From a virus: a stretch of 27,647 nucleotides of DNA. Every line of letters begins with the position of its first letter. The first letter of the stretch is position 1. The notes under the pieces are model-generated. The model had not been told where the DNA came from, made no database searches, and saw nothing but the letters and a program-made list of their open reading frames with translations. The DNA lies in the IMG/VR virus record IMGVR_UViG_3300031784_000165, positions 1-27,647 of that record; one strand, 5' to 3'. The position numbers were made by a program, and so were the translations under genes. Below are positions 1,182 to 19,252 of this stretch, one piece after another.

Positions 1182-2690
1182 TTGGTAATTACACTAACAG
1201 ATGATAATAGGTTTTTACGAATTGATGAAGCTGATGAACTTGAACTCGAACAATTAAATTTAAGTCTCACCAAGCGAATTGATGGCTGGAGGTTTAATCC
1301 TCTAGTCAAAAGGGGTGTTTGGGACGGGTACATTTCATACATTAAAGATAATAAATGGATTCCTGCAGGTCTATGGAAATATGTCATGGAGGTTTGCAAA
1401 GAATACAACTTTGATTTAAAAATTAATGGAATTACTCGCATATTTGATCGAAATATCACAGCAGAAGGATTTGAAAAATGGGCATATGATTTTTTCAATG
1501 GCTATAAATTAACACCGCATGATTATCAAATTGATGCAGCTTTTAATATTCTTAAATTTAAAAGATGCTTAGCAGAATTAGCAACATCAGCTGGAAAGAC
1601 AATGATTTCCTTTATGACAGTTGCCTATATGCTAGAAAAACAAAAAGCACAAAAAATTCTTTTTATCGTACCAAATGTTTCTCTTGTCGTTCAGGCAAGT
1701 GAGGACTTTATTGACTATAATTGGAAAAACCAAGTTAAGATTAGAATTCAACAAATCTACTCTGGTCAAAAGGTTAAACCGAATGCAAATGTGGTTATTG
1801 GTACATATCAATCCCTAATTAAAAAAGAGAAAGAATACTTCGATGAATTTGATTGTGTAATCGTCGATGAAACACACAAAGCCAAATCACAATCAATTAA
1901 AGATATTTTAGCAAAATGCAGAAATGCACACTATCGATTTGGTCTATCCGGAACAATTCCAAAGGATGGATCAATAGATAAGCTAACACTGATGTCTCAA
2001 ACAGGTCCTGTAATTACTGAAGTAAAAGCAGCATATTTACAGCAAGAAGGCCACATTGCACAGTGTCGTGTAAAAGTAATAGAAATGGATTATGCACCAG
2101 AAGCAACAAAGAAAGCTTTCCAAGAACTTGCTCAGAACAGATACGAAAATAAAGATGTCTTCCAACTCGAGCAAAACTACATCATCAACAATGATGCACG
2201 TCTTGACTTCATTGTCAACGTTATTTCCAGAGTACCAAGGAATTCTTTGGTTCTTTTTCACCGAATCGAGCATGGTAAAAGGTTATACGATGCATTACGC
2301 CAAAGAAGTCAAAAAAAGGTTTTCTATGTTGACGGTGGAACAGATTCAGATATTAGAGAAGAGTATAAAAAGAAGATGGAACACGGGGACGAAGTTGTCA
2401 TTGTTGCATCTTACGGAACTTTTTCAACGGGAATCTCGATTAAAAAGATTCACAGCGTCTTCTTCACGGAATCATTTAAATCAGAAGTTATCATTAGACA
2501 ATCAATTGGTCGAGGACTTAGACAGCACGAGTCAAAAAAAGAAGTAATAATTGTAGATTTTGTTGATAATTTGTCAACGGCTGATTGGGATTGCTATCTT
2601 TATAGGCATGGACAAGAACGACAAAGAATCTATAATCAAGAAAAATTTAAATTCGACGTTAAGAAGGTTACATTTGACGGTTCGGCATAA
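1182..2690 (+). CDS. uvsW: UvsW-like ATP-dependent DNA/RNA helicase (superfamily 2)
   Basis: This 502-residue SF2 helicase is the size of T4 UvsW, which unwinds R-loops and branched recombination intermediates and helps switch from origin- to recombination-dependent replication. Visible motifs are Walker A ATSAGKT (about 134-140), DETH box (229-232), SGT (256-258) and motif VI QSIGRGLRQ (440-448). The N-terminal segment GWRFNPLVKRGVWDGYI (35-51) matches the small UvsW N-terminal domain, so coding must begin near 1182. The start is odd: a TGA lies in frame at 1176-1178 and no ATG occurs in frame before residue 69, so TTG at 1182 is the most likely start. An ATG at 1175 is out of frame. The gene follows uvsY with a 17-nt gap. 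Confidence 0.9.
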   Translation: MVITLTDDNRFLRIDEADELELEQLNLSLTKRIDGWRFNPLVKRGVWDGYISYIKDNKWIPAGLWKYVMEVCKEYNFDLKINGITRIFDRNITAEGFEKWAYDFFNGYKLTPHDYQIDAAFNILKFKRCLAELATSAGKTMISFMTVAYMLEKQKAQKILFIVPNVSLVVQASEDFIDYNWKNQVKIRIQQIYSGQKVKPNANVVIGTYQSLIKKEKEYFDEFDCVIVDETHKAKSQSIKDILAKCRNAHYRFGLSGTIPKDGSIDKLTLMSQTGPVITEVKAAYLQQEGHIAQCRVKVIEMDYAPEATKKAFQELAQNRYENKDVFQLEQNYIINNDARLDFIVNVISRVPRNSLVLFHRIEHGKRLYDALRQRSQKKVFYVDGGTDSDIREEYKKKMEHGDEVVIVASYGTFSTGISIKKIHSVFFTESFKSEVIIRQSIGRGLRQHESKKEVIIVDFVDNLSTADWDCYLYRHGQERQRIYNQEKFKFDVKKVTFDGSA

Positions 2691-2739
2691 GTAAACTTTA
2701 GTAAATTCAAATGAATATATAAGATAAGATTAAAAAAAT

Positions 2740-5532
2740 ATGAATAAAATGGAACTAAACAGAATTTCATCATTTAAATCTTTTTCAGAAATGAAAAAAC
2801 AGCAGGATGCTGTAAAGACTGAACAAGATAATAAAAGTAAAAGAGTTAAATCTCTTGAGAAAATTTCAGCTATCTTAGATGAGTTAGAAATTTCAGACAT
2901 GTCAGAACTTGACGAAGAAAAGAAAAGAGCACTAGTTGCAAAAATTTTTAATGAAGACCGCGCTGAAGAAATCGAAAAAGAAATTATGGCGATGGGTAAA
3001 GAAAAAGATGCAGTTGAAGATGTTCTTAAAAAAGTTGAAGAAGACCGCGCTGAAGAAATCGAAGGTAAAATCAAAGATTTAGGAGAGCCTGAAAAAGAAG
3101 ATGCTGATGATGCTGAAGAAGTTCAAGCAGATTTATATGAAGCTACAGTTACTCTAGATGCTATTGAGCCTAATGAAAAAGGTCTAGTTGATTTTTGTAA
3201 GAAAAAGGGTATTAAGTGGAAAATCGTAAATATGAATGGTCCTGCAGCCAACTATCCAGAAGTTGAATATGTTGGTAAAAAGAAGGATCTTGAAAAAATG
3301 ATTCAAGATTTCTGGGGAAAAGATAGTGGTCTAGAAGAATTCATCGAAGAAGCATATATTTTTGAAGCTCGTTCAATTAATAAAATTCAAAATGATTGGA
3401 GCAAAATTACTGCTGAAATGGCAGCTAAAGCTCAAGAATGGAAAGCAGCCGAAGGCGATGCTAAAGCAGCTTTATTAGATGAATTAAAAGCAATGACTGC
3501 TAAGAAAAAAGCTTTAGAAGCTGAATTAAACGATGCAGTTGCTGGTAAAGATAAAGATCTTGAATTAGCAGTTTCTGAAGGAAATGCATTTACTGGAGCT
3601 CTTTTTGCCGCAAGAAATAAAGGTCAAAAAACTTTTGAATTTAACGGAAAAACATACAAAGTACATGGTGCTAAGACCGTTAATGAAGATGATGAAGAAG
3701 TTCAAGAAGGAAATGCTTTTGGAGATGCGGTTAGAAAGGCAAAAGAAGAAGGTAAAGACGAATTCGAATTTCAAGGTAAAACTTATAAAGTAGAAGAAGC
3801 CGAGGAACTTGAAGAGGGAAATGCTTTTGGAGATGCGGTTAGAAAGGCAAAAGAAGAAGGTAAAGACGAATTCGAATTTCAAGGTAAAACTTATAAAGTA
3901 GAAGAATCTAAAATTACTGAAGGAGTAGTTTCTATTAAAGGTGGCAGAATTATTGCACATAAAGTTCTTAATAAATTAGTCGACATGGATTTGCTTTCAG
4001 TTAGAAAGAAAACTGAAGATTTATTAGAAACTATCGCAGAAGTAATTGCAAATGCTAAAATGGAATCAGTTGAAGTCAACGAAGGTTCACATGGCATGGC
4101 TAAGAGATTACTTAACGATATTATTAAAGGAAATACTTCAAGAGCCGAAGGTATTAAAATGTCAAAAGAACTAGCTGAATATTATTTAGATTGGATTGAA
4201 AGATCTGAATTCGGTAAAAGAAATTCTGGCTTACCTTTGTTTATGATTGTTAAAGCAAGTTTTAATTGGAATACATTCACAAATAATATACCAAAAGAAT
4301 TAAAAGACGAAGTAAAAGATCTTCAAGATTATGTAAAGAAAAACGAATCTTTAGAAGTTAATGAAGGTGCTGTAAAGCAATTTGAAATGGACTATGCCGA
4401 TATGGAGAAATCTATTAAAAGAGGTATCGGTTGGATTGATCCAGATTACGTAGCTACAACATGGGAAAATTCATCAGACTCTTTTCCATTTGAGTTAGTT
4501 GCATCTGAAATCTATGGAAGATTAATTAAAGCAGGACTTTTATGGTATGCTGACGAAGAAACTGGAGAAGATAAAGGCGAGCAAGTTAAATCTTTAAAAG
4601 AGCTTGGTATTAAAGAATCAGCAGAAGTTAATGAAGCAAAAGCTAAAGGTTTAGATTGGATTATTTCTCAATTAGGAGATAATCCAGAATGTATGGATGT
4701 TGCTTCATTCGTATATGATAATTATGATAAAGTAACTGGTCTTAGAAAATCAATGAGAAATGACGAAATGGATTTTCCAGATGAAATCATGGAAGTTGTT
4801 GACCATTACGGTTTAGATATTGATGAATTTACAGACTGTTATGGTATGGCTGCTGAATCAGTTGTTACTGAAGGTAAACATTGGCATGTTTTAAGTGGTA
4901 ATAAATGGTACACTGGTAGCGATTTTTCTACAAATCCAGCTGATGCTATGAAATACGATGATATTATGTCAGCGACTAAAGTATCTAAAAAAGTAGGCGG
5001 AATGGTTCATGTTATGACTGATGACGAAATGGATAAAGCCATTAAAAAGTTTAGCAAAAATGAATCATTGATTTCTGAAGAAGAAATTCAAACAGATGAT
5101 GAATTTAAAGAATACGCATTTAATGTTTTACAAAAAGCATTTGGTGAAGAATTTGATGCTGAAAAAGCTCAAGAAGTTGTAGATGGTATTCTTAAGAAAT
5201 GTGGAGATGATTATGGTGCATGCGTTGGAACTCTAACAAGTTCTCTTGGAGAATCAGTTTCTAATGAAGGAATCGATGTAAAGTATTGGGCAGATTATCA
5301 CGATCATATAGACAGACAAGGAAATTCAAAATATTATGAAAAAAGTCGTGATTTTGATACAATTTGGAAAATTGCAGTTAAATCATGGGATGAAGAAGCC
5401 GCTGACGAAGAGAATAAATTACCTTCTAACCAAGAGCCTAAAATTAAAAAATTAGCAAAAGAATTTTTTGATAAAGCTAAATGGATCTCAGTAAACGTTT
5501 GCCACGCAATGATTAATCAGGAAATGGTATAA
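2740..5532 (+). CDS. 930-residue acidic mosaic protein, candidate head-internal polyprotein
   Basis: I do not recognise a single family. The protein is acidic and mostly helical, with a coiled-coil-like Lys/Glu/Ala N-terminal third. It then breaks into modules of about 60-95 residues, whose boundaries carry a recurring motif: MESVEVNEG (441-449), NESLEVNEG (535-543), KESAEVNEA (625-633), AESVVTEG (705-712), NESLISEE (774-781) and GESVSNEG (837-844). Most contain [I/L/V]xE followed by G or A, the cleavage rule of the T4 prohead protease gp21. Three GNAF modules (from 281, 324 and 360), each ending near GKTYKV, also follow such a site. I infer a protein packed in the prohead and cut into pieces. 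The N-terminus (SFKSFSEMKK) is a weak match to the tag on later genes. A strong terminator follows. Confidence 0.8.
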   Translation: MNKMELNRISSFKSFSEMKKQQDAVKTEQDNKSKRVKSLEKISAILDELEISDMSELDEEKKRALVAKIFNEDRAEEIEKEIMAMGKEKDAVEDVLKKVEEDRAEEIEGKIKDLGEPEKEDADDAEEVQADLYEATVTLDAIEPNEKGLVDFCKKKGIKWKIVNMNGPAANYPEVEYVGKKKDLEKMIQDFWGKDSGLEEFIEEAYIFEARSINKIQNDWSKITAEMAAKAQEWKAAEGDAKAALLDELKAMTAKKKALEAELNDAVAGKDKDLELAVSEGNAFTGALFAARNKGQKTFEFNGKTYKVHGAKTVNEDDEEVQEGNAFGDAVRKAKEEGKDEFEFQGKTYKVEEAEELEEGNAFGDAVRKAKEEGKDEFEFQGKTYKVEESKITEGVVSIKGGRIIAHKVLNKLVDMDLLSVRKKTEDLLETIAEVIANAKMESVEVNEGSHGMAKRLLNDIIKGNTSRAEGIKMSKELAEYYLDWIERSEFGKRNSGLPLFMIVKASFNWNTFTNNIPKELKDEVKDLQDYVKKNESLEVNEGAVKQFEMDYADMEKSIKRGIGWIDPDYVATTWENSSDSFPFELVASEIYGRLIKAGLLWYADEETGEDKGEQVKSLKELGIKESAEVNEAKAKGLDWIISQLGDNPECMDVASFVYDNYDKVTGLRKSMRNDEMDFPDEIMEVVDHYGLDIDEFTDCYGMAAESVVTEGKHWHVLSGNKWYTGSDFSTNPADAMKYDDIMSATKVSKKVGGMVHVMTDDEMDKAIKKFSKNESLISEEEIQTDDEFKEYAFNVLQKAFGEEFDAEKAQEVVDGILKKCGDDYGACVGTLTSSLGESVSNEGIDVKYWADYHDHIDRQGNSKYYEKSRDFDTIWKIAVKSWDEEAADEENKLPSNQEPKIKKLAKEFFDKAKWISVNVCHAMINQEMV
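2953..3063 (+). repeat. 24-nt direct repeat encoding EDRAEEIE
   Basis: The 24 bases at 2953-2976 recur exactly at 3040-3063, an offset of 87 nt (29 codons). Both copies encode EDRAEEIE in the coiled-coil-like N-terminal part of the 930-residue protein. It suggests short in-frame duplication in this gene, like the larger repeat further downstream. Confidence 0.85.
3709..3906 (+). repeat. exact 90-nt direct repeat, 108-nt period (GNAF modules)
   Basis: Bases 3709-3798 are identical to 3817-3906, with 18 diverged bases between them, so the unit is 108 nt (36 codons). Each copy encodes a module running from GNAFGDAVRKAKEEG to GKTYKVEE. A third, diverged copy lies upstream (protein residues 281-308: GNAFTGALFAARNKG, then FEFNGKTYKV). 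Identity at silent positions in the two later copies indicates a recent duplication or ongoing conversion. Confidence 0.97.
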
Positions 5533-5550
5533 TTTAAAAAGATAAATATT

Positions 5551-5582
5551 AGACCTGAGTATAGAACACTCAGGTCTTTTTT
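5551..5582 (+). terminator. intrinsic terminator after the 930-residue protein gene
   Basis: A perfect 10-bp stem (AGACCTGAGT with ACTCAGGTCT, 7-nt loop) is followed directly by a run of Ts. It lies 18 nt after the stop codon at 5532. The next ATG is only 4 nt beyond the T run, so no promoter fits between them and the downstream gene must rely on read-through or on a promoter inside the upstream gene. Confidence 0.93.
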
Positions 5583-5586
5583 GATT

Positions 5587-6867
5587 ATGAAAAAACTACA
5601 TACATTTAACAGCTTTTTACTAGAACAATGGAATAGCAAATATCCAGAATTAGTAATGGAAGGTGGTGCAGCCGGGCATATGATGCATCCTTTTGACGAT
5701 CATGATTTAACATTTGGCGATTTACGCCATTTAGTTGATTCTGCGCTTCAAGGTAATTTAAGTTTTGAAGAGGCACCGACTGAAAAAACAGATGGACAGA
5801 ATCTATTCGTTACGGTAAAAGATGGTAGAGTTTTGTTTGCTAGAAATAAAGGTCAAATGGCGAATCCAATTGATTTAAAGGGAATCACAGATATGTTTAA
5901 GGATCACCCTTCAGCTGGAGTAAGAGATACATTCACTTATGCCGCATCAGACCTAGCAAGTGCACTTGGTTCATTAAAGGGTGCTGATTTAGAGGACTTT
6001 AATAATGGAACTTCATTTATGAATATGGAGTTAATTTATTCAGGTAACTCAAATGTAATTAATTATGATCGCGATGTAATTCAATTCCATGGAATTGTCC
6101 ATACTGATGGTAATGGTAATCAAATTGGATCTGATTCTAGTGTTGCTAGAAAAGTTCAAGCAGCTCTTAATAAAGTTACAGCAGATGTTCAAAAAACATT
6201 TCAAATTATTCCTCCGCAAGATTTGCAAATTGGTAAAAATGTTAATTTTGAAGAGAAAAAGTCTTATTTCATGAAGCAAATTGAAGATCTTCAAAAAAGA
6301 TATAGTTTGGCAGATACTGATGAGGTTTCTAAGTATCATGAAATGTGGTGGAGAGAATTAATTGCTTCAACATTTCCAACTTTAGATGACATTACTAAAG
6401 AAGGTTTGGTTAAACGTTGGGCATTTGATGACAAGAAAACTCTCAATATGCGCGATGTTAGTAAACAAATTGGAGCTAGTGAATATAAAAAACTACAAGA
6501 GTTCGAAAAAACTGATGCTAAAAAGAAGTATAAAGAGAACATCATGCCGTTTGAAAACATTTTCCTTGAATTAGGATCTGTTGTTTTAAAGAACGTTTCA
6601 AACTTATTAGCGGCAAATCCAGACCAAGAAATGCAGAGACTTCATAATCAAATTAAAACTGAAGCTGATAAAATTAAAAAAAATGGTGACCTTTCTCAAA
6701 TTTCTAAAGTAGAAGCTGAATTAGCTCGTTTAGAAAGAATTGGAGGCATCGAATCAATTGTTCCATCAGAAGGTTTGGTATTTAAATATAAAGGAAAACT
6801 ATATAAATTAACTGGTACATTTGCTGCAATAAATCAGCTAATGGGTATTATTAAATACGGAAGATAA
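5587..6867 (+). CDS. ligase-type covalent nucleotidyltransferase with capsid-targeting-like leader
   Basis: This 426-residue protein has the motif set of the DNA/RNA ligase and capping-enzyme superfamily: motif I EKTDGQNLF with K67 as the predicted adenylylated lysine, ARNKGQ (85-90), motif III-like MNMELIYSG (145-153), motif IV SEGLVFKY (394-401) and motif V KLYKLTG (404-410). About 240 residues, partly helical and charged, separate motifs III and IV. The N-terminus MKKLHTFNSFLLE has the form of the T4 internal-protein capsid-targeting leader (MKTYQEFIAE), and VME-G follows at residues 23-26. ATG at 5587 is chosen because it preserves this leader; a TTG six bases earlier lies in the terminator T run. 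One base separates it from the next gene, which is also ligase-like. Whether it joins RNA or DNA, or uses ATP, is not shown. Confidence 0.75.
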   Translation: MKKLHTFNSFLLEQWNSKYPELVMEGGAAGHMMHPFDDHDLTFGDLRHLVDSALQGNLSFEEAPTEKTDGQNLFVTVKDGRVLFARNKGQMANPIDLKGITDMFKDHPSAGVRDTFTYAASDLASALGSLKGADLEDFNNGTSFMNMELIYSGNSNVINYDRDVIQFHGIVHTDGNGNQIGSDSSVARKVQAALNKVTADVQKTFQIIPPQDLQIGKNVNFEEKKSYFMKQIEDLQKRYSLADTDEVSKYHEMWWRELIASTFPTLDDITKEGLVKRWAFDDKKTLNMRDVSKQIGASEYKKLQEFEKTDAKKKYKENIMPFENIFLELGSVVLKNVSNLLAANPDQEMQRLHNQIKTEADKIKKNGDLSQISKVEAELARLERIGGIESIVPSEGLVFKYKGKLYKLTGTFAAINQLMGIIKYGR

Positions 6868-6868
6868 A

Positions 6869-8725
6869 ATGGCATTACAAAAATTAAGAGATCTATACCA
6901 ATCGGTAAATATTAATGAATTCAACTCAATGTTGAATGATAAAATTGTTGTCTCTGAAAAGATCGCAGCCCCTTCTTTATATGTTAGAAGAAGTTTAAAT
7001 GGATTTGAGTTCTATAAAAACGGATCAAGTGAAGAGCTTTCTCCAATCGATAGAACCATGGTTTCTTTATATGAAACTGCCATTAAATATTTTCAATCAA
7101 TTTCACCTGAAGTTAAGCAAAATATGCCAATTGATTGGAAATTTGGATTTGAATATCTTCCAGATGTCGAAGCTTCTCCATATCAATATGATACTTTACC
7201 CACAAACTATTTAATATTAACACACATTCAAGTTTTAGGTGAGAATAGAAAACCTAGAAAAGTTATTAATGATACTGCTATTCTTAATAAATGGGCAGGA
7301 ATGTTTGGTGTACAAAAGCCACCCGTTATTTTTGAAGGTATATTACACACAGAACAAAAAGATCGTTTAATTAAATTACTTTCAATGAATGAAGGCGAAT
7401 TTAATAAGCGATATAATAAAGATACGTTTACAAGAGAAGCGTATCATATTTTTAATCAATCTTTAACTAAAAGTACATTAAATGAAAATTTAGATAAAGA
7501 AATTGATGGTTTAATAGTTTCTTTTATTGATGGAACTAAAGTAAAATCCTATAAATTAGAATCATTCGATAGACTTAATGAATCAAATGACGATAGAGAG
7601 TCTTCTCATATGTACCAGATCACCATCGTTGATTTATTAGAATATATGAATAGTTTTAATTTAGACGAAATTGAATTAACCGAAACAAACCCGGATTTAC
7701 GATATATTGAGTTAACTTCAGCAATTTACAATCAATATCTTTCTAAGAATGCATTTAAATATGTTGGTGCTAATTTTGATTCTGCTAATTTTGCAACAAT
7801 TGAGTCATTTAAGTTGAATACAACATATATTAAAAATGAAACTACGCTAGATTATATTTCAAATCCAGTTCTTGCTGAATTGTATAAAATAGTTTTAGGT
7901 AGTTTTAGAAAGAAAAGAACCAAGGAATCAACTATTATTTCAGGGTTGGTTTTAAATCAAATTAATGAAATCGTGGATAAAATTGAACAAAAGATCTATG
8001 TTGAACCAACTGAAGAAAATGCAGTATTCGACTTTCATAATTTTATAATGCATCATAAAGTTGCAAATAGCCAAAAAATTACTGAAGCATTAAAGATCGA
8101 TTATCCAGAACAAGGTCGCGAAAAAGTAAATATTTTTGTTGGTAGATTTCAACCATTTACACTAGGTCACGTTAAAGTATTAGAAACACTTAATAAGCAA
8201 AATGGATATCCAGTTATTGTATTCTTAGTTAAGGCAAAAACTGCTAAGAAAGAGGATGCTATTAAAAGACCTTATGATGTAGAAACTCAAATTCAAATGT
8301 TTAATAATGTACAGAGCGAATACAGATTCTTAAAAGAAGTTATTGTTGTTCCTTCTGCTGCAATCGATGTTATGTTTAATGAACTTAGACCTAATTATGA
8401 GCCTGTTTTATGGGGCACTGGAACTGACCGTATGAAAGCTTATGGATATATGGTTAACAATGATAAATATCGTCAAGAACTTGGAGTACTTCCTGAATTT
8501 GGCTTATATGAAATCCAAAGAGGAGACGATGATATTTCAGCTACCAAAGTTAGACAAGCACTTAGCGATGGTAATGTAAAAGAGTTTAATAAAATGACTC
8601 CACGTTCTCTACACGGAATGTTTAATGATTTAAAAGAGAAATTAGATGCTTCTTTTGCAGCTATGGAATCTATTCAAGTTGAAGAAGATATTTTAACATT
8701 TGAACAATTTATAAATAAGATATAA
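6869..8725 (+). CDS. fusion of ligase-like nucleotidyltransferase and NMN-adenylyltransferase-like domain
   Basis: The 618-residue protein has two enzymatic parts. Residues 1-235 look like an RNA-ligase-type domain: motif I VVSEKIAAPSLY with K31 as candidate nucleophile, FGFEYL (92-97), motif IV EIDGLIVSF (211-219) and motif V KSYKLES (226-232). Residues 420-590 form a cytidylyltransferase-fold domain like NadM/NadR-type NMN adenylyltransferases: GRFQPFTLGH (425-434, the (H/T)xGH motif) and ISATKVR (556-562). These families join nucleic-acid ends through an AMP-enzyme intermediate and make NAD+ from NMN and ATP, respectively. A helical linker of about 180 residues connects them. The C-terminus ends in LTFEQFINKI, a tag-like sequence resembling leaders on neighbouring genes. 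Its last base overlaps the next ATG. Confidence 0.78.
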   Translation: MALQKLRDLYQSVNINEFNSMLNDKIVVSEKIAAPSLYVRRSLNGFEFYKNGSSEELSPIDRTMVSLYETAIKYFQSISPEVKQNMPIDWKFGFEYLPDVEASPYQYDTLPTNYLILTHIQVLGENRKPRKVINDTAILNKWAGMFGVQKPPVIFEGILHTEQKDRLIKLLSMNEGEFNKRYNKDTFTREAYHIFNQSLTKSTLNENLDKEIDGLIVSFIDGTKVKSYKLESFDRLNESNDDRESSHMYQITIVDLLEYMNSFNLDEIELTETNPDLRYIELTSAIYNQYLSKNAFKYVGANFDSANFATIESFKLNTTYIKNETTLDYISNPVLAELYKIVLGSFRKKRTKESTIISGLVLNQINEIVDKIEQKIYVEPTEENAVFDFHNFIMHHKVANSQKITEALKIDYPEQGREKVNIFVGRFQPFTLGHVKVLETLNKQNGYPVIVFLVKAKTAKKEDAIKRPYDVETQIQMFNNVQSEYRFLKEVIVVPSAAIDVMFNELRPNYEPVLWGTGTDRMKAYGYMVNNDKYRQELGVLPEFGLYEIQRGDDDISATKVRQALSDGNVKEFNKMTPRSLHGMFNDLKEKLDASFAAMESIQVEEDILTFEQFINKI

Positions 8726-10170
8726 TGGGACAAACTTACGGAGATATTAGAGCAAGATTTCAACTTGCATTAAATGAAGCAGCAAGATCGATTGAAGGAA
8801 CAGTACTTCCGGCAATGCAGAAATTATTAGGACCCGGTAGAATTAATACAAAGAATGGTGGAAAAGATTTAAGATTTGATTTAGGTGGAGATTCTAAAAG
8901 CGCACTAAAATCAATCAGTGATGCTCTTAATAAATTAGGAGCATCAAAATTCGATATCGTAACTGCTGGACCTGGAGAATATTCAAATGGTTCTAATTCA
9001 GGTAAATTTACAACTTTCATCGTAACATTCGGTGAAGATGTAAAAGATTTAAAAGTTTCAATCGGAGATGTTATTAAATTTGTTGATAATAATCCACCAA
9101 GAGGATCTATTAAATCTAAAGAACTTACTCCAACTTCTCTTAATTTACCACAAGACACTGATATGAATTCTACAGTTTTATCAAACAGTGTTAAAAGCGC
9201 AATTAACAGTAAGTATAGCTCTAATCTCTTTATGCAAAGTTTTTTAATCGAACTTTATGATTTAATATCAATGCATAAACCTTCAACATATTTTAAAGAT
9301 CCATTATCAATTTCAGCGTTTTCTGAAACTATCGGATATGATGAAAATGTTAGAGAAGCAATTGATGCTCTTGGTGTAACAGATCTAAACACAATCGGTA
9401 AAGATTTTGGTGAAGTTCTAGGAGCTGCATTACTATTAAATATGGTAACAACTCAACATGGAATATCATTTCCTTCTGGAAATAATCCACTAGTAGATTT
9501 TTATATTGATGGATATGGTATATCTTCAAAATATAAATCTGGAGCAGCCCCAACCCTATCAAATATTATTAAAAATCTAAAAGCTGAAAATTTTACTGAA
9601 ACTTCAGAAGTTCAGTTGTATGATTTATTTAAAATTATAGAAAACAATTCAGTAATCGATGGTTATATTAAAGGCGCTGAATTTATGAATACGCCATCAA
9701 TTTCTGTGTTAAAGGGATTGATTGGAAATGTTCCATTAGATGAAAAATCTCTAGAAAGTTTTATACAAGCTAAAATGACTGAGCTTGGTAGAGAAGAATT
9801 CTTTACAACTTACGTTCAACCATTGGTTAAATCCTCTGGTAGAGGAGTTGACAAATTTGACAAAGTTCAATGGGACAAACTAGATAAAGGTAAAAAGTAT
9901 ATTGGCTTATTTAGTTACTCATTAAGCTTAGAACTTATTGATGTTTTAAATGGTAAACTTGGTGCTGGAGATACTTATATTAACACACTAAGAACCATCG
10001 TTGCTAAATTAGATGTTAAACAATTATATATGGATGTGGATCTTAAAAGAGACCAGATTCATTTTTATTTAAAAGGATTTAGCGATGCTAATGCAAAACT
10101 TTCATTCGAAGCACCGAACGTATCATCAACCAACCCAGGTAATGGTAAGCTAGGTTTCAAAATGAAATAA
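8725..10170 (+). CDS. unknown protein with possible nuclease-like core
   Basis: No family is recognised with confidence for this 481-residue protein. Its first 18 residues end in LALNE followed by A, again the prohead-protease type of site, although the upstream part (MGQTYGDIRARFQ) is not a clear targeting leader. In the middle, FGEVLGAA (228-235), NPLVDFYIDGYG (254-265) and ISSKYKSGAAPT (266-277) are arranged like the helix-Glu, strand-Asp and xxK strand of PD-(D/E)xK nucleases, with Ser where Glu or Asp is usual. This is a weak structural guess. The gene overlaps the ligase/NMNAT fusion gene by one base, so the two are probably translated together. A 32-nt A/T-rich gap follows. Confidence 0.6.
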   Translation: MGQTYGDIRARFQLALNEAARSIEGTVLPAMQKLLGPGRINTKNGGKDLRFDLGGDSKSALKSISDALNKLGASKFDIVTAGPGEYSNGSNSGKFTTFIVTFGEDVKDLKVSIGDVIKFVDNNPPRGSIKSKELTPTSLNLPQDTDMNSTVLSNSVKSAINSKYSSNLFMQSFLIELYDLISMHKPSTYFKDPLSISAFSETIGYDENVREAIDALGVTDLNTIGKDFGEVLGAALLLNMVTTQHGISFPSGNNPLVDFYIDGYGISSKYKSGAAPTLSNIIKNLKAENFTETSEVQLYDLFKIIENNSVIDGYIKGAEFMNTPSISVLKGLIGNVPLDEKSLESFIQAKMTELGREEFFTTYVQPLVKSSGRGVDKFDKVQWDKLDKGKKYIGLFSYSLSLELIDVLNGKLGAGDTYINTLRTIVAKLDVKQLYMDVDLKRDQIHFYLKGFSDANAKLSFEAPNVSSTNPGNGKLGFKMK

Positions 10171-10202
10171 TGATATATAGTTTATAAAAAATACTAAAGA
10201 TT

Positions 10203-11531
10203 ATGAATTTTGAAGAGTTTTTAAATGAATCCAGAATTACTATTAAAAGACAGTATACTGAGAATCATCCAGCTAAGACAGTTGGAAAACATGCTACTAT
10301 TCGAAATACTGTAATTGAAGCTGTAAAAGATGGTAAGATTTCTAAAGAAGATTTCAATGCTATTCTTTCTAAAGTTTCAGAAGACCAAAAAAGATGGCTA
10401 AAGAGAAACGCTGGATTTTTCAACGTTTCCGAAGATGGTATATCTTTAAGCAAAGATGGTCTTAAAATTTATAACCAGATTAAACAAGAAAAAGAAAATC
10501 AAAATAAACCTCGTTTCGAAATGAAAAGATTAGTTGAATCATTCTCAGAATTTGTTGAGAACTTAAATGAAGGTACTATAAATGAAGCATTTGCATCAGC
10601 AAAACTTGCTAGTATTTTACTTGGTGCCGCAAAAATGCCAAAAGATCTTCCAAAAGCATTCTATGCAATGTCTAAAATTGCACTTGATAAAGTTCAAGAT
10701 ATTGATATTATTGAAATGGATCCAGAAACTGCTAAAAAAGAAAAAAGAGCAAGCGCTGTATATTTCTATTTTACAACTAATGAAAAAGAGAATCCATATT
10801 CTCAAGACGATTGGTCAACTAGAACGATTCCAGCAAACTGTTTATTAGCTATCACTGATGGTCAAAATGAATGGATGAATGTTGAATGGCAAAGTAGATA
10901 TAGCGCCAGAAATAACAATAGAATTTTAAAGACAACCAAAAGAGATGATTCAGCGGGTATTGCAAAATCTTCTGCTAGTTCTGCATACGGTTCTAGAATT
11001 TCAAGCTTAAAACAAGTTGTTGAGCTTGCAGATAGAGCATATTGTCTAGACCTAGAAATTCTTAGAGCAAGATATTCTACAGCAGCTATACAATCCGAAA
11101 GAGCAGCTGCAAAAAAAGGAGCAATCGCATTCCAAAATGACAAAGATTTCAAAGCTGAAAACTTGAAAAGATATAATGAAATTTTAGCTACTAAAGCTGC
11201 TGAATTACCATTAGATTCTCTTGTATCTAAAGCAATTGAAACTATCGCAGATCAAATCAAAGATGGTTTAGCTAGAGGTTTAAAGGGAAGATATGATGAA
11301 CCTATTATCGGAACAGATCCAAAAGGAAGAGAAGTTAGAATGAGTGATGCTGCAAACTTAATGAGAAACATTCTAGATGAGTATGGCAGATATTGTGGCG
11401 ATGTTACTAACGCAGAGAGAGAAAAAGCAGCTGGTTATACCGGATCTTACTATGAAGGTAGTATGAAACAACATGCTAAAAATCTTCAAGATTACATTAA
11501 GAAAATTGACAACTTAAATTACGCTTGGTAA
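10203..11531 (+). CDS. putative head-internal protein with two targeting-leader-like segments
   Basis: This 442-residue protein of unknown function begins MNFEEFLNES, which fits the FxxF[I/L/V]xE tag, and contains a second similar segment at 107-129 (MKRLVESFSEFVENLNEG, then TINEA). Both LNE-G (121-124) and INE-A (126-129) match the prohead-protease rule. Residues 16-100 form a small basic, helical segment; the main domain starts after residue 129 (ASAKLASILLGAAKMPKDL) and is helical with many K, R and E residues in its last 170 residues. It looks like two tagged cargo proteins joined end to end. No enzymatic motif was found. ATG at 10203 follows a 32-nt A/T-rich gap with no Shine-Dalgarno sequence. 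Confidence 0.72.
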   Translation: MNFEEFLNESRITIKRQYTENHPAKTVGKHATIRNTVIEAVKDGKISKEDFNAILSKVSEDQKRWLKRNAGFFNVSEDGISLSKDGLKIYNQIKQEKENQNKPRFEMKRLVESFSEFVENLNEGTINEAFASAKLASILLGAAKMPKDLPKAFYAMSKIALDKVQDIDIIEMDPETAKKEKRASAVYFYFTTNEKENPYSQDDWSTRTIPANCLLAITDGQNEWMNVEWQSRYSARNNNRILKTTKRDDSAGIAKSSASSAYGSRISSLKQVVELADRAYCLDLEILRARYSTAAIQSERAAAKKGAIAFQNDKDFKAENLKRYNEILATKAAELPLDSLVSKAIETIADQIKDGLARGLKGRYDEPIIGTDPKGREVRMSDAANLMRNILDEYGRYCGDVTNAEREKAAGYTGSYYEGSMKQHAKNLQDYIKKIDNLNYAW

Positions 11532-11533
11532 AT

Positions 11534-12379
11534 ATGAAATACGTAAAACTATTTGAAAGTTTCATTCTTGAAGCTAAAGTTAATGAGGGATATTATTCTT
11601 CATCTGACATTAAGAAATTAAAAGAATTTGCAGAAGAAACTTCTGAAGAAATTAAATGGGTGTATGCTGGCTACAGAAAATTTAAATCGCGTGAGTTTTC
11701 TGCTAAAAAAATGCTTGATTATATTTTAGCATGGGGTGAAATGAAAGATTTAACGGCAGACGAAGTTATATCTACATTTGATTATACTTCAAAAGACTTG
11801 GAACGTGATTTGGGTTTAGCGGGTTTGGATGAGTCAAAAGTTAATGAAGCTAGGAAACAATATAAAGTACTTGATGTTACTGTTGACGGAAATCCAGTTA
11901 TTGAATTTCAAAATGGAACATCATGCTCAAAATGGATCAAAGACAATAAAGAATCTGTTATTGGTGATGTGAAAATGGGAGCATTAGATACTGATCAAAA
12001 TAGAATTGTTGGTACTAGCAGAGGCCCATATTGGGTTATTGTTAAACCAGATTTTGCTAATGAAAACTTTATTAATGAAGCTTCTAAGCCAGAAAAACCA
12101 GCAATTTTAGTAAAATTGTTTAAAGAATTATCTAAGGCTAAAAACGTAGAATCATTATCTTGGGGATATGATGCAGATGAAGAGTTTCCACATGTTGTGA
12201 AATTTGAAAATGGATTAGAAGCGCAATCACCTAGACATGATGGAGAACTAGAGCAATTTTCATTCTATTTAAATGACGATGGCAAAACTATTCTCGGAAT
12301 TTACGATTTAAGTGGATATGACCAAGAACTAAAAACAGTTAAAGATGCCGTTGAATGGTGTCGTGCCAACGAATATTAA
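11534..12379 (+). CDS. putative head-internal protein with leader and three processing-like sites
   Basis: The 281-residue product starts MKYVKLFESFILEAKVNEG: an FxxFILE tag followed by A, then VNE-G nine nucleotides' worth of codons later. Two more sites occur further on, DESKVNEA and ENFINEA, each at a boundary between apparent small domains. Cutting at all of them would release a short leader and three pieces of roughly 80-100 residues, the last containing an acidic C-terminal domain (ESLSWGYDADEEFPHVVKF). No known enzyme motif is visible. ATG at 11534 is preferred over an in-frame TTG at 11525, because it starts the leader and avoids overlap with the previous gene, which ends at 11531. 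The next gene begins 6 nt downstream. Confidence 0.72.
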   Translation: MKYVKLFESFILEAKVNEGYYSSSDIKKLKEFAEETSEEIKWVYAGYRKFKSREFSAKKMLDYILAWGEMKDLTADEVISTFDYTSKDLERDLGLAGLDESKVNEARKQYKVLDVTVDGNPVIEFQNGTSCSKWIKDNKESVIGDVKMGALDTDQNRIVGTSRGPYWVIVKPDFANENFINEASKPEKPAILVKLFKELSKAKNVESLSWGYDADEEFPHVVKFENGLEAQSPRHDGELEQFSFYLNDDGKTILGIYDLSGYDQELKTVKDAVEWCRANEY

Positions 12380-12385
12380 TAAGAT

Positions 12386-12931
12386 ATGAAACACATTAAG
12401 CTATACGAAAACTTTATTGCTGAAAAAGCATACCAGTTAACTGGAATCTACGGAGCTAAAGGTATTATTGGAAAAGTTCTATTTGCCTTTAAGAAAGAAG
12501 TAGAAAAGATTAAATATGAAGGTGATGCTGATGCAACTTTAGCTGAACTAAATGAAATTTGGTCATACTGGGCAGATCGCGATGGTTCTAAAATCATTGA
12601 ACAAGAAGTAATGAAAGTTGTAAAAGATAAAGAAGCTATAGTTTATATTACAGCAACTTTATCAAATTCACAATGGATTGCTGATGTTGTTAATAGATTA
12701 AATACACCAACAGGTACAGAACTTTTTGTTAGTTTAAAAAGTGATTTTGTAATTAATATTGGTTTTGCTGATGATGTTGACGCTAGCAAATTTGATCGTA
12801 AGCTTGGTGGAATGACAAACACTGCACTCTTCGTATCAGCTACTACAATCGTCGGTGATCAGGACGAGCAAGTTGGTTATAATAATATTGAAATTAGAAA
12901 CAGCGTTTTCTTATCAATAGATGCTAAATAA
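12386..12931 (+). CDS. putative head-internal protein with T4-like capsid-targeting leader
   Basis: The 181-residue protein begins MKHIKLYENFIAEKAYQLTG. Its YENFIAE segment is the closest match in the window to the T4 internal-protein leader MKTYQEFIAE, with the same Y-x-x-F-I-A-E spacing, although Lys rather than Ala follows the Glu. The remainder is a compact domain of unknown function with an apparently alternating strand pattern (IVYITATLS, LFVSLKSDFVINIGF, ALFVSATTIVG). It would be packed in the capsid if the leader works as in T4. It sits 6 nt after the previous tagged gene and 5 nt before the next, so all three are probably co-transcribed. Confidence 0.72.
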   Translation: MKHIKLYENFIAEKAYQLTGIYGAKGIIGKVLFAFKKEVEKIKYEGDADATLAELNEIWSYWADRDGSKIIEQEVMKVVKDKEAIVYITATLSNSQWIADVVNRLNTPTGTELFVSLKSDFVINIGFADDVDASKFDRKLGGMTNTALFVSATTIVGDQDEQVGYNNIEIRNSVFLSIDAK

Positions 12932-12936
12932 TTTTT

Positions 12937-13392
12937 ATGCCGAGCACAAGTAAAACACAACAAAGACTAATGGGAGTAGCGTATGCTGTTAAAGCCGGTC
13001 ATATGCTAATCTCTGATGTTTCAAAAGAATACCAAGACAAAGTTAAAGATTTAATCAATGGAATGACATTGAAACAACTTAAAGACTTTGCATCAACGCC
13101 ACATGAGGATCTTCCAGAAAAAGTTAAAGAAGCACTAGGTTTTGCTACTAATATTGGAGGACCTCAAAGCGTATTCATGCCAGGAGCTGGTATGGGGGCA
13201 GTTAAATTACCAAACTTAGGAACTGGCGCAAATGGATCTGGAGATGTTCCAAAGGGAGCAGGTTGGGCAGAAGATGAATACGAAGAAGAGAAGAAAAAGC
13301 GTAAGAAAAGAGAGGCTGAAGCCGAAAAGAATGAAAAACCGGTAAAAACATTCGAGCAGTTTGTTTTTGAAAAATTAAACAAACAAAAGTAA
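12937..13392 (+). CDS. DUF3008-like small protein with C-terminal tag
   Basis: The N-terminus (MPSTSKTQQRLMGVAYAVKAG, here named by its ends MPSTSK to VKAG) and the following LKQLKDFASTPHEDLPEKV resemble the DUF3008 family of small phage and bacterial proteins, whose function is unknown as far as I know. A Gly/Pro-rich middle (about 73-108) leads to a highly charged helical tail with EEEKKKRKKREAEAEK. The last residues, KTFEQFVFEKLNKQK, contain TFEQFVFE, the same tag pattern seen at the N-termini of neighbouring genes, here at the C-terminus. The gene preceding the PD-(D/E)xK candidate has a similar C-terminal TFEQFINK. The product is 151 residues. The family call is moderate and is based on pattern memory only. 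Confidence 0.68.
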   Translation: MPSTSKTQQRLMGVAYAVKAGHMLISDVSKEYQDKVKDLINGMTLKQLKDFASTPHEDLPEKVKEALGFATNIGGPQSVFMPGAGMGAVKLPNLGTGANGSGDVPKGAGWAEDEYEEEKKKRKKREAEAEKNEKPVKTFEQFVFEKLNKQK

Positions 13393-13406
13393 ATCTATAA
13401 AATATT

Positions 13407-13712
13407 ATGATGGAATTACTTTTATTAGGATCTAACCGAGGTAAAAATTGGGAAGTTATGGCAATCGAAAAGATTATTAAATCAATCGATTCATGCCAGA
13501 CTTTAAAGCAATTAAGAACTTGCAAAGCTCTAGTAAATAATTTCATGTTTGCATCAATTATGACCGGAAAAGACGAAAATGATGCAGTTCTACAATTAGT
13601 ATCTTCGCAATTATTTTTATTACTTAAAATTAAAGAGACATCTCTAATCACTAGTCTCTTAGATGAAATTGATTCAATGGATTTAGAATCAATTAGTTTA
13701 CAAACTCTATAA
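13407..13712 (+). CDS. small helical protein of unknown function
   Basis: A 101-residue protein that I do not recognise. It appears mostly helical, with Leu-rich C-terminal segments (QLVSSQLFLLLKI, SLLDEIDSMDLES) and Cys at two positions near the middle. ATG codons at 13407 and 13410 are adjacent and either may be used. The start is preceded by TATAAAATA at 13396, an A/T-rich element seen before several starts. It is the last gene before the GAAAC-N17-TATAA promoter-like motif at 13720, so it probably ends the preceding transcription unit, although no hairpin terminator is visible. Confidence 0.6.
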   Translation: MMELLLLGSNRGKNWEVMAIEKIIKSIDSCQTLKQLRTCKALVNNFMFASIMTGKDENDAVLQLVSSQLFLLLKIKETSLITSLLDEIDSMDLESISLQTL

Positions 13713-13719
13713 TTTTTTC

Positions 13720-13747
13720 GAAACTTTTTTGTAGTTTTAGATATAAG
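13720..13747 (+). promoter_or_regulatory. promoter-like motif GAAAC-N17-TATAAG
   Basis: GAAAC at 13720-13724 and TATAAG at 13742-13747 are exactly 17 nt apart. The same two elements with the same spacing occur at 15406 and 24205, always just upstream of a gene. The -10-like box lies 22 nt before the ATG at 13764. The motif is directly visible; its promoter function is inferred. Confidence 0.6.
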
Positions 13748-13763
13748 TTCTAAAGCAGCAAAT

Positions 13764-14045
13764 ATGAGTATTTTAGAAGAAGCAGACAAGATTGTCAACA
13801 ATCGTTCAGAAGAAGCAGATCGCCAATATGGTCCATTTTCAGAAGGCATGGATCGAGCAGCAATGATTTTTAATGGTATGACCGGACTTAATGTTACGGG
13901 TCGTGAAATGTTTATGGCGCTAGTAGCGCTTAAATTCTCGCGTGAAAGTTATAATCACAAACGAGATAATTTGCTTGATGCAGTTGCGTATATTCAAGGT
14001 TTAGAAAATTATATTAATGAAAAGAACGAAGGAACAAAGAAGTAA
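13764..14045 (+). CDS. DUF6378-like protein
   Basis: The 93-residue protein has the pattern of DUF6378-type phage proteins: an N-terminal ILEEADKIVNNRSEEADRQYG, then FMALVALKFSRES and a C-terminal DNLLDAVAYIQGLENY. The combination of an Arg/Tyr-Gly segment and a late D-x-x-D-A motif in helices recalls all-alpha nucleotide pyrophosphohydrolases, but a catalytic function cannot be shown. The gene follows the promoter-like motif at 13720 and appears to open a short unit with the overlapping membrane-protein gene (start 14017) and the SGNH-like gene (start 14358). Confidence 0.68.
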   Translation: MSILEEADKIVNNRSEEADRQYGPFSEGMDRAAMIFNGMTGLNVTGREMFMALVALKFSRESYNHKRDNLLDAVAYIQGLENYINEKNEGTKK

Positions 14046-14361
14046 AGACGTTTTAGAAGTGATCCATTTTCCAATGTGGATTCTTAAAGATTTAGCGTGG
14101 ATGATGGGATTTGGTGTTTTAAGTTTAACACTTGCAATTCCAACAATCATAATCTCGGTTCTATTAATTAAATGGAGTGATAGATTTTTCGAAAAGATGG
14201 AAAATATATCAATACTTTGTTGGTTAACAGCAAACACTCTATGGATGTCGCATGAACAATTTAATGCTCAGACTAAAGAGTTAGCCGTAATAATGTTTAG
14301 TTTTGGCATTATTATTTCATTTACATATTTACCATCTCTTATTAAAAAGCTTTTAAAATGA
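14017..14361 (+). CDS. small membrane protein, about three transmembrane helices
   Basis: The 114-residue product has a basic N-terminus (MKRTKEQRSK) followed by three hydrophobic stretches: GFGVLSLTLAIPTIIISVLL, ISILCWLTANTLW and LAVIMFSFGIIISFTYL. It is therefore probably an inner-membrane protein of the infected cell. No family is recognised; small phage membrane proteins of this kind include holin-like, superinfection-exclusion and unknown types. The start at 14017 overlaps the upstream gene by 29 nt; the next in-frame ATG is at residue 20 and would remove the positive N-terminus. The stop overlaps the next start (ATGA), suggesting coupled translation. Confidence 0.62.
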   Translation: MKRTKEQRSKDVLEVIHFPMWILKDLAWMMGFGVLSLTLAIPTIIISVLLIKWSDRFFEKMENISILCWLTANTLWMSHEQFNAQTKELAVIMFSFGIIISFTYLPSLIKKLLK

Positions 14362-15407
14362 TAAGCATCTACGATATAAAAGATTCTTTACTTGGTAAAA
14401 AAGTTGCAATAGATGATGTGGTTACTACTTATAGTTCAAAACCAGAATCTCATAAATCAGCATGGACATATTTATTAATGTCACAATTAAAGAGTCTAGG
14501 TATTGATGCTACCGTTTTAACCAAAGATGCAAATGTTCATAACTATGACGTTTGGTTAGTAGCTTTACCAATGGAATTTCAAGGAAGTTACAATTTATTT
14601 GGCGGTGCTAATGATGAAACTGCAATTAGAATGCAAAGGCTAATAGATTTTAAAGGATCTGTGTATTGTCTAAATAGACAAATGCCAGACATTGGAGCAT
14701 TTGCTAAAAGCAGAATGAATGCATGTACTGAGATTTGGAAAAATCTTGATGTTGAAACTTTAAGTACAAAATCAGTAGAAACTCAGACAATAGATACAAC
14801 TCTAAAGTCTGATATATTTGTGTTAGGTGATAGCCATTCGGTTTCAGTTTATGTACCAGGCTCAAATATCAGTCGAAATGATGGTAAAACATTATTTGGA
14901 GTTATTAAAGAAGGTATGACAACCTATATTCCAGAAGGAACTAAACACCTAATTACGTATTTTGGTAATATTGATATTCGACACCATTTATGCCGACAAC
15001 CAGATCCGGTTAAAGCAACTGAAGATTTGGTTAAGAATTATGTTGAACATTTAAAATCTTTAAACATTCCAAAGATTAGTGTAGTCAAATTATTACCAAT
15101 CGATCATGAAGAACGCAGAATTCCAAAAACTGGATTCTACAAAGGAACACCTTTTTATGGATCTTTAGAAAAAAGATTAGAAATTTGTCGAATTTTTAAT
15201 CAAAAGCTGAGTATATATCTAAGTGAGGCCGGATACGAATTAATCGAATGGCCAATCGAATGGTATCAACTTAGCCCTAAAGACTATGCGGATATGTATA
15301 TGGAAAAACCCGGATCGGTGCACCTTTCAAGGAAATATTATCAATATGACTTTGAAACCGGAAAAAAGAATCCAGAACTTAAACCAAAAGTTACTAGCCT
15401 ATTTTGA
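14358..15407 (+). CDS. SGNH/GDSL-type hydrolase-like protein
   Basis: The 349-residue protein has an N-terminal domain of about 145 residues of unknown role and then a domain with SGNH-like blocks: FVLGDSHSVSVY (GDSHS at 157-161, candidate catalytic Ser), ITYFGNIDIRHHL (199-211) and PGSVHLS with H322. Such folds hydrolyse or transfer esters, often acetyl groups on sugars, and the FGxxDxR block is common in proteins near glycan genes. Specificity is unknown. It ends KPKVTSLF, sharing an SLF terminus with the polymerase C-terminal half. The stop codon at 15405-15407 overlaps the GAAAC element of the next promoter-like motif by two bases. Confidence 0.55.
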   Translation: MISIYDIKDSLLGKKVAIDDVVTTYSSKPESHKSAWTYLLMSQLKSLGIDATVLTKDANVHNYDVWLVALPMEFQGSYNLFGGANDETAIRMQRLIDFKGSVYCLNRQMPDIGAFAKSRMNACTEIWKNLDVETLSTKSVETQTIDTTLKSDIFVLGDSHSVSVYVPGSNISRNDGKTLFGVIKEGMTTYIPEGTKHLITYFGNIDIRHHLCRQPDPVKATEDLVKNYVEHLKSLNIPKISVVKLLPIDHEERRIPKTGFYKGTPFYGSLEKRLEICRIFNQKLSIYLSEAGYELIEWPIEWYQLSPKDYADMYMEKPGSVHLSRKYYQYDFETGKKNPELKPKVTSLF

Positions 15408-15433
15408 AACCTTTTATAAATTATAAGTATAAC
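15406..15433 (+). promoter_or_regulatory. promoter-like motif GAAAC-N17-TATAAC
   Basis: GAAAC at 15406-15410 and TATAAC at 15428-15433 are 17 nt apart, as in the motifs at 13720 and 24205. The -10-like box begins 28 nt before the ATG of the inositol-phosphate synthase gene, and it occupies most of the 48-nt gap between genes. Confidence 0.6.
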
Positions 15434-15455
15434 TTAAAACAAATTACTAAAAATC

Positions 15456-16634: not shown

Positions 16635-16645
16635 TTAATCCAAAT

Positions 16646-16676
16646 AGATGGAGAGTTTTGCTCTCCATCTTTTTTT
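16646..16676 (+). terminator. intrinsic terminator after the inositol-phosphate synthase gene
   Basis: A perfect 10-bp stem (AGATGGAGAG with CTCTCCATCT, loop TTTTG) is followed by a run of seven Ts. It begins 12 nt after the stop at 16634. The next start codon (16690) is 14 nt beyond the T run and no promoter-like motif is seen in that gap. Confidence 0.94.
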
Positions 16677-16689
16677 AAAAAAGAAAGAA

Positions 16690-17058: not shown

Positions 17059-17066
17059 TATAAAAT

Positions 17067-17738: not shown

Positions 17739-17747
17739 AATAATATT

Positions 17748-18797: not shown

Positions 18798-18807
18798 TAT
18801 AACTATT

Positions 18808-19236: not shown

Positions 19237-19252
19237 AACTATAAAATAGTAT

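Follow-up and report, generated by a model that had tools for sequence, protein, structure and literature searches.

Why do several nearly consecutive genes of one viral DNA carry the same short peptide at an end? The question is raised by positions 2,740 to 13,392 of IMG/VR virus record IMGVR_UViG_3300031784_000165, whose positions 1 to 27,647 were analysed as a whole and are called the window here (27,647 nucleotides). An earlier note, made from the letters of the window, had proposed that these genes form a bank of capsid cargo, tagged like the internal proteins (IPs) of phage T4 and delivered into the host with the DNA. The analysis makes it very probable that the cluster encodes head cargo loaded by capsid targeting of the T4 type, widened into a modular cargo system, the products of which would be packaged, cleaved and injected by the window phage.

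The T4 system gives the frame for this reading. According to passages of PMC9026906, PMC12373910 and PMC9391042, T4 leaders carry proteins into the prohead and are then removed by the protease gp21, and the IPs are injected and block restriction enzymes. Residues 4 and 7 of the leader are described as serving targeting and residues 8 and 10 processing, and gp21 cuts after L/I-x-E (PMC9026906, in part).

Tags in the window

All tag peptides quoted in the earlier note are found in the window. The genes of the cluster, named by their first position, are listed below; an arrow marks a predicted cut.

2740 to 5532, + strand: chain of modules of 930 amino acids, a predicted cargo polyprotein, with the weak leader SFKSFSE at 2770-2790
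5587 to 6867, + strand: RNA-ligase-like nucleotidyltransferase with leader MKKLHTFNSFLLE at 5587-5625 and a second possible cleavage site, LVME↓GG, at 5650-5667
6869 to 8725, + strand: ligase-like N-terminal domain (a guess from motifs) and NMN-adenylyltransferase/cytidylyltransferase-like C-terminal domain at about 8132-8557, with C-terminal TFEQFINK at 8696-8719
8725 to 10170, + strand: conserved protein with the variant leader RFQLALNE↓A (ALNE↓A lies within RFQLALNEAARS, 8755-8790) and D(x3)DG..SxK at 9496-9531
10203 to 11531, + strand: predicted cargo protein, apparently of two modules, with leader MNFEEFLNE at 10203-10229 and internal ESFSEFVENLNE↓GTINE↓AF at 10536-10592
11534 to 12379, + strand: predicted cargo protein of three modules with leader MKYVKLFESFILE at 11534-11572 and junctions VNE↓ARK at 11828-11857 and INE↓ASK at 12059-12088
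12386 to 12931, + strand: predicted cargo protein with leader MKHIKLYENFIAE at 12386-12424
12937 to 13392, + strand: DUF3008 protein (Pfam PF11450) with C-terminal tag TFEQFVFE at 13348-13371

Five genes have [FY]xxF[ILV]xE at an end, four of them at the N-terminus (5587, 10203, 11534 and 12386) and one at the C-terminus. The strict tag was defined as this motif within the first 30 residues of called open reading frames (ORFs), with 200 shuffles of the N-termini as control. The window has 4 strict N-terminal tags in 28 ORFs compared with a shuffle mean of 0.10 and a maximum of 2. The C-terminal tag of gene 12937 is outside this count because its ORF call was dropped, a longer minus-strand ORF overlapping it. 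Elsewhere in the window, RNR beta is the only called ORF with the motif, which lies at an internal position (FAAFLKE).

The five tagged genes of the earlier note are thus present, and 10203 and 11534 both appear to have several modules. Gene 2740 has the weak leader that had been pointed out, but is a module chain rather than a simple tagged protein. In gene 8725, where an early LALNE-A had been noticed, the Glu before A/S proved to be invariant in all nine aligned members of the family.

Tag frequency in related records

Relatives of gene 5587 are encoded by 220 IMG/VR stretches, and 80 of these 220 were used. The window and eight related records have 4-21 N-tagged genes each compared with 0.1-1.9 expected. 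G013, a record of 95 kb that is 100% identical to the window in gene 5587, has strict N-terminal tags in 7 of 90 ORFs. The corresponding counts are 21/345 in G001, 13/238 in G002, 6/147 in G008, 4/220 in G004, 8/151 in G009, 8/178 in G005 and 20/685 in LR756500, an uncultured phage of 462 kb. Shuffle means range from 0.18 to 1.91 across the eight records (0.57 in G001, 1.91 in LR756500), and the weakest excess is in G004, with 4 tags against a mean of 0.47 and a maximum of 3. Within the first 30 positions the lineage has a tag density of 0.6-4.8 per 1000, compared with 0.05-0.21 in protein interiors.

Strict tags in the control phages were found in 3 of 272 ORFs in T4 (ipII, ipIII and gp61.1), 3 of 394 in KVP40, 4 of 329 in P-SSM2 and 0 of 187 in T5. 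Mel-JY01 (0/241) and immuto (1/226), named near relatives for single genes, have no tag bank. T4 gp61.1, a hypothetical protein of 54 amino acids (AF158101:18966-19130), has a strict capsid-targeting-like leader at its start.

The cargo reading would lose ground if the tag were equally frequent in cytoplasmic proteins, as the earlier note had pointed out. Among 2082 called proteins from nine lineage records, a strict N-terminal tag was found in none of the 196 with a T4 homolog (E 1e-5) and in 91 of the 1886 others (Fisher P 1.6e-4, a value that is only nominal because proteins of related phages are not independent). The 196 untagged proteins take in homologs of primase, helicase, UvsX, DNA polymerase, clamp loader, gp46 and gp47, and also of sheath, portal, protease and head protein. 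The cargo reading thus withstands the refuting condition set in the earlier note.

Proteins behind the tag

With the tag removed, 212 distinct tagged sequences fall into 66 blastp clusters (E 0.01), separate clusters of this kind being no proof of separate origins. A scan of IMG/VR viral contigs with a DNA pattern of one consensus gave at least 120 stretches. In the 80 loci analysed, 109 tags (3 on ORFs under 40 amino acids) correspond to 99 distinct proteins and 41 additional clusters. The tagged repertoire varies from record to record. The values for tag codons and for genome codon usage are 0.652 and 0.639 in G001, 0.668 and 0.657 in G002, and 0.742 and 0.774 in LR756500. Tag codons are thus no more alike than codon usage predicts, which argues that the peptide is kept by selection and not by recent copying.

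Copying of the leader as a DNA cassette was considered as well and rejected on the diversity of the tag codons.

Pfam and PHROG scans covered 62 of the 66 cluster representatives (all but the four shortest), and Pfam was also run on the 99 proteins of the pattern scan; the Pfam families given here are those among the matches listed, 25 of 45 and 25 of 37. Few tagged proteins can be assigned. They include Tad3, Acb1, Zeta/AAA_33 kinase, PNK3P phosphatase, GNAT acetyltransferase and CHAP, and further a cytidylyltransferase-like protein and a DUF2201 metallopeptidase. Matches to ATP-grasp and methyltransferase families did not reach the curated cut-offs when members were scanned one by one. One tagged protein (alignment A1) matches an HNH endonuclease PHROG (E 1.7e-80) and need not be an effector.

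Three of the 20 records searched encode the Thoeris inhibitor Tad3. It carries the tag in G001 and G002 (Pfam PF25185, 69.3 and 79 bits, cut-off 27) and lacks it in G005, where the relative lies at G005:139203-139799. A single anti-defence family would accordingly seem to occur both with and without the tag. The anti-CBASS protein Acb1 was found in 4 of 17 records: it is tagged in G001, where the match is marginal (PF23474, 28.3 bits, cut-off 27), has a degenerate leader in G002 (27.2 bits) and is below the cut-off in G011. The Acb1 of T4 scores 202 bits and is not among the strict N-terminal tag matches of T4.

Two observations hint at a Bacteroidota host. A Shine-Dalgarno-like stretch is found upstream of only 26 of the 109 tagged genes, and the best isolate match of the RNR beta of the window is from a Flavobacterium phage (53%).

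The prohead protease and its repeat tail

An S77 prohead protease was found in 11 of 13 related contigs, the near-identical G013 included. In eight lineage records the protease is the front of a protein of 573-686 amino acids, compared with 193-220 in T4, KVP40, P-SSM2, immuto and Mel-JY01. The long form is not unique, because residues 9-429 of the G013 protein match a head maturation protease of PHROGs; the next gene in G013 matches a major head protein. The tail behind the protease contains 4-10 copies of [FYH]xx[FYH][ILV]xE in all eight records, compared with about 0.1 in shuffles. The copies are spaced by 14 residues over most of the array in G004 and by 14, 21 or 28 in much of the others.

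The gene directly before the protease encodes 112-130 amino acids with the tag at its start in six of the eight records, and in G004 and LR756500 a larger untagged protein precedes it. The gene after the protease begins ..LINE↓AE in six records and LLNE↓AE in G005, and in G002 a spurious short ORF is found there. These sequences suggest that the tag mimics a scaffold repeat and would be cut at the same Glu.

Chains of modules

Gene 2740 consists of about a dozen small modules, most of them placed after a site resembling VNE↓G, VTE↓G or VSE↓G, and its junctions are mostly of the form [VIL]xE↓[AG]. The modules reappear in different order in related contigs. The gene has no Pfam match over the cut-off and no tblastn match in 50,697 phage records (E 1e-3, low-complexity filter on), and positions 2000-20000 of the window have no megablast match to phages. 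The following modules were delimited, with the conservation of Glu at position -1 where it was counted.

3142 to 3351, + strand: module B, residues 135-204, after LYE↓A; Glu at -1 in 13 of 13 other contexts
3580 to 3921, + strand: tandem GNAF-type modules D, E and F of about 35-43 amino acids each, after xxE↓G; Glu at -1 in 34 of 35
4084 to 4365, + strand: module H, residues 449-542, after VNE↓G; Glu at -1 in 6 of 6
4873 to 5079, + strand: module K, about residues 712-780, missing in the near-identical G013 copy
5080 to 5268, + strand: module L, residues 781-843; Glu at -1 in 34 of 34
5269 to 5529, + strand: module M, residues 844-930, after SNE↓G; a relative lies behind an N-terminal tag at G001:194790-195371

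Module L has the most widespread single-family matches, 75 proteins, some of them counted twice as loci and genomes overlap. The junctions were counted over all modules with one entry per distinct placement, with GNAF modules merged, the window excluded and unrelated upstream sequence required. Among 114 placements in 63 proteins, Glu is found at -1 in 110 (background 11%), I/L/V/M/F at -3 in 106 and A/G/S at +1 in 100, and all three features are combined in 93. The sequences upstream of these placements have a mean identity of 9%.

Whole modules are also gained or lost between close relatives. The G013 copy of gene 2740 is identical in 850 of 866 residues outside a single gap of 64 amino acids, which corresponds to one site and the module K behind it. 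In the G013 copy of gene 11534 exactly the first module is missing, and the leader FESFINE directly meets ARKQYKV.

Relatives of the modules also occur directly after tags. This applies to module M and to the second module of 10203, which follows a strict tag in G005:82859 and a tag-like leader in L038:14686. The first module of 11534 follows a strict tag in L039 and a degenerate leader in G005:96605, and its third module a strict tag in L003. Conversely, sequences that follow a tag have Glu exactly at -1 in 44 of 97 cases when found inside other proteins, compared with 63 of 585 untagged controls; many rows belong to the 10203 family, and in the 60 rows inspected a Glu that missed this position mostly lay a few residues away, a shift that was not scored. 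Gene 2740 is predicted from these comparisons to encode a chain of exchangeable modules that the head protease would cut apart.

Virion-labelled homologs in a cyanophage

Searching for relatives of gene 12937 turned up Synechococcus phage S-SCSM1. Its ORF93 is a DUF3008 homolog of 12937 (43% over 67 amino acids) and its ORF91 an NMN-adenylyltransferase (NMNAT) homologous to the C-terminal domain of 6869 (26% over 198 amino acids, E 9e-13), and both are labelled as virion proteins in the record. Passages of PMC9602691 report 45 proteins of S-SCSM1 detected by mass spectrometry (MS) in CsCl-purified virions, and they name the NMNAT but not ORF93. They consider the NMNAT possibly carried by the virion or left in the suspension, and mention that NMNAT-like proteins were also found in virions of other cyanophages. 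The record labels 48 coding sequences as virion, compared with the 45 proteins in that paper.

ORF91 starts with MKSFLQFLKE↓A and is the sole strict N-tagged ORF among the 288 called in S-SCSM1. ORF93 ends with RTFKEFLEYIE, which is tag-like without Glu at the same place as in 12937. An NMNAT-like relative was found in 535 phage records. The leader is present in all nine cyanophage NMNAT-like proteins compared (that of S-SCSM1 and eight chosen among 40 listed rows); six are strict, and those of Bellamy, Sf-CH8 and P-TIM68 are off at one motif position. The tag is missing from the deposited NMNAT-like proteins of Bellamy and S-T4 (L370, L373) because the annotated start lies downstream of the leader.

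Proposed loading of the cargo and alternative explanations

The capsid-cargo reading of the earlier note gains support from the absence of the tag in T4-homologous proteins, from the tag or repeat at the S77 protease and from the virion-labelled homologs in S-SCSM1. Loading might take place as follows. The tag would imitate the repeat of the protease tail, and tagged proteins would co-assemble with the prohead core. The protease would then cut after Glu, which would take off the leaders and dice the chains of 2740, 10203 and 11534 into small free proteins; the specificity of gp21 for L/I-x-E and the conservation of the junctions point to this step. By analogy with T4, the freed proteins would be injected alongside the DNA and take effect immediately. 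In the window the payload is predicted to comprise an RNA ligase, a fusion of ligase and NMN-adenylyltransferase, and about a dozen small modules; its relatives would add anti-defence proteins resembling Tad3 and Acb1 as well as proteins resembling polynucleotide kinase/phosphatase. A wider proposal, which might equally well hold or fail, is programmable head loading: any protein given a copy of the scaffold repeat would be co-assembled and then freed, chains would yield effector sets in fixed ratio, and the head would deliver Tad3- and Acb1-like anti-defence proteins, together with a kit for RNA repair and NAD (ligases, kinase/phosphatase, NMNAT), before phage gene expression.

It is rather unlikely that the tagged proteins are processed in the prohead and act there, as scaffold filler or in DNA condensation or head size, and are not host effectors. 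The tag on the small gene before the protease and the many short, unannotated modules would suit such a role, but core filler would hardly be expected to resemble Tad3, Acb1, ligases, NMNAT, acetyltransferases and kinases, and the repertoire differs among records. As another alternative, the xxE↓[GA] joints of 2740, 10203 and 11534 might be no more than linkers, or places of recombination, in a multidomain protein that stays uncut. Precedents are the polyvalent proteins, with 2-15 domains and predicted to be injected, and the N4 virion RNA polymerase, packaged unprocessed (PMC5512222, in part). This is unlikely for the present chains: the joint [ILVMF]xE↓[GAS] is kept in 93 of 114 placements despite unrelated preceding sequence, it matches the specificity of gp21, and modules stand directly after N-terminal tags elsewhere.

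That the leader is an expression or localisation signal without relation to the head, spread by recombination as a DNA cassette, is very improbable. Its position is strongly conserved, the motif starting after 6 residues in 139 of the 212 distinct tagged sequences; the tag codons, however, are as diverse as the background, the motif or its core is also found at C-termini, internal joints and the protease tail, and T4 ipII and ipIII carry it. Chance resemblance of N-termini hardly deserves belief. The pattern is short, and its counts in T4, KVP40 and P-SSM2 (3, 3 and 4) stay within the highest of 200 shuffles, but 4 tags against 0.10 in the window, 21 against 0.57 in G001 and 20 against 1.91 in LR756500 are of another order. 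Chance was rejected for the lineage on these shuffle counts.

Several results weigh against the reading of the cluster as head cargo. In addition to the control counts within the shuffle range, the strict pattern misses the third IP and Alt of T4, so the pattern is convincing by bulk in the lineage and not gene by gene. The S77 prohead protease has no match within the 27.6-kb window, for which reason larger related records were used. No tail repeat was found in the five short proteases, which have no such tail; the separate scaffold proteins of these phages were not searched. The junction test is strong but not fully blind, since the motif itself had first served to place the module boundaries in the window copy. 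The residue behind the leaders (P1') is often Lys (51/212) or Arg (20/212), unlike the A/G at module junctions. The strict tag is missing from seven of the 38 proteins in the 5587 family. The tag-like end noted for gene 6869, C-terminal TFEQFINK, is present but lacks Glu, and among 36 aligned members of its family 24 have C-terminal [FY][EKQ]xF, none has the Glu and none has an N-terminal tag. In S-SCSM1 the tag is found in 1 of 47 virion-labelled and 0 of 241 other ORFs, which is not significant (P 0.16; ORF93, missed by the ORF calling, is outside this comparison), and nearly all virion-labelled proteins are untagged. The cargo of the lineage is predicted from sequence, and the published MS concerns the homologs in S-SCSM1.

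Relation to known systems

The cluster resembles IPI-III of T4 in the short leader, the spacing of the aromatic residue and Phe, the I/L-x-E end and the S77 protease in related contigs. The mature parts of the IPs are likewise described as without evident homology, the leader alone being common (passages of PMC9026906 and PMC12373910). T4 has three IPs and at least ten are reported for related phages (PMC12373910, in part), compared with 4-21 strict N-terminal tags per record here. Unlike the T4 IPs, the lineage has multi-module chains, C-terminal forms, enzyme-like proteins and a protease fused to a repeat tail. The likeness to S-SCSM1 ORF91, detected by MS in purified virions (PMC9602691, in part), consists of a homologous NMNAT-like domain and a leader; the window gene differs in joining this domain to a ligase-like one and in having the tag core at the C-terminus, without Glu.

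Polyvalent proteins share the multi-domain structure, the shuffling and the predicted injection with phage DNA, and often have their own peptidase domain (MPTase in about 36%), according to sections of PMC5512222. The present chains differ in having many small modules, predicted to be cut by the head protease at each joint. In phiKZ-like giants (201phi2-1, SPN3US) many head proteins are cut after Glu by the prohead protease and some are thought to be ejected; the passages of PMC9026906 drawn on mention no shared F/Y-spaced leader. The S77 family was not detected in phiKZ.

Capsid-targeting sequences, internal proteins and the virion NMNAT are already known. In the open-licence literature, no paper among the matches listed joins capsid-targeting sequences with cyanophages, uncultured phages, Thoeris or CBASS. 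As far as these listings show, the scale, the cut-apart chains, the C-terminal forms, the protease-tail repeat and the Tad3 and Acb1 leaders have apparently not been described together before.

Good knowledge of injected phage proteins is limited to a small number of model phages, and with the tag the predicted injected repertoire of uncultured phages becomes readable from sequence. If the cargo reading is true, phages can bring inhibitors of Thoeris and CBASS along in the head instead of making them once infection has begun, and tagged genes of unknown function are candidates for immediate anti-defence functions. The tag and the scaffold repeat would then be a testable model for the recognition of T4-type leaders, and the presence of NMNAT in cyanophage virions, the delivery of which was left open by its discoverers (PMC9602691, in part), would be explained.

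Individual genes of the cluster

Pfam has no family for 5587, 8725, 10203, 11534 and 12386. All 38 members of the 5587 family have EKTDGQN, which contains the nucleotide-binding motif KxDG; the strict tag is found in 31 and [LIV]xE↓GG in 37. In comparisons with the predicted structure (mean pLDDT 83.3), RNA or tRNA ligases fill the top 23 VIA-align rows (Z 8.4-6.9), the best with 185 residues aligned at 4.2 A, a Z that the tool calls common. Foldseek gave nothing at E <= 0.001, and a PDB profile search only weak unrelated matches and no ligase.

The NMN-adenylyltransferase-like domain that the earlier note had mentioned lies in gene 6869 and is borne out by Pfam PF01467 (32.2 bits, cut-off 21), by the motif GRFQPFTLGH, of which T, G and H are invariant in 36 family members, and by PDB profile matches to 1f9a (hypothetical MJ0541, E 2.4e-6) and 2qjo (NMN adenylyltransferase/Nudix, E 5.9e-4). 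The PHROG match is cytidyltransferase.

The D(x3)DG..SxK motif of gene 8725 is found in all nine aligned members. The protein has no PDB profile match and Foldseek on its model gave nothing credible, and calling the motif nuclease-like is a guess for lack of a credible fold match. Proteins of 930-1114 amino acids in L048, L062, L063 and L066 resemble 6869 at the start and end in a relative of 8725. Fusion of this kind suggests a joint function of 8725 and the ligase-NMNAT 6869.

Most of the listed relatives of gene 12386 keep the leader, and two are fused behind xxE (L009, L017). The strict C-terminal tag of 12937 is found in 9 of 31 distinct relatives, and several of the others are longer proteins.

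Downstream of the cluster, a DNA polymerase of the T4 gp43 type is split between 19720-21129 and 25020-26216 of the window, with other genes, an RNR-like gene among them, in between. Only the second half was found in G004. The polymerase is in two halves in G013, G001, G002, G008, G009 and G005, and in three pieces in LR756500.

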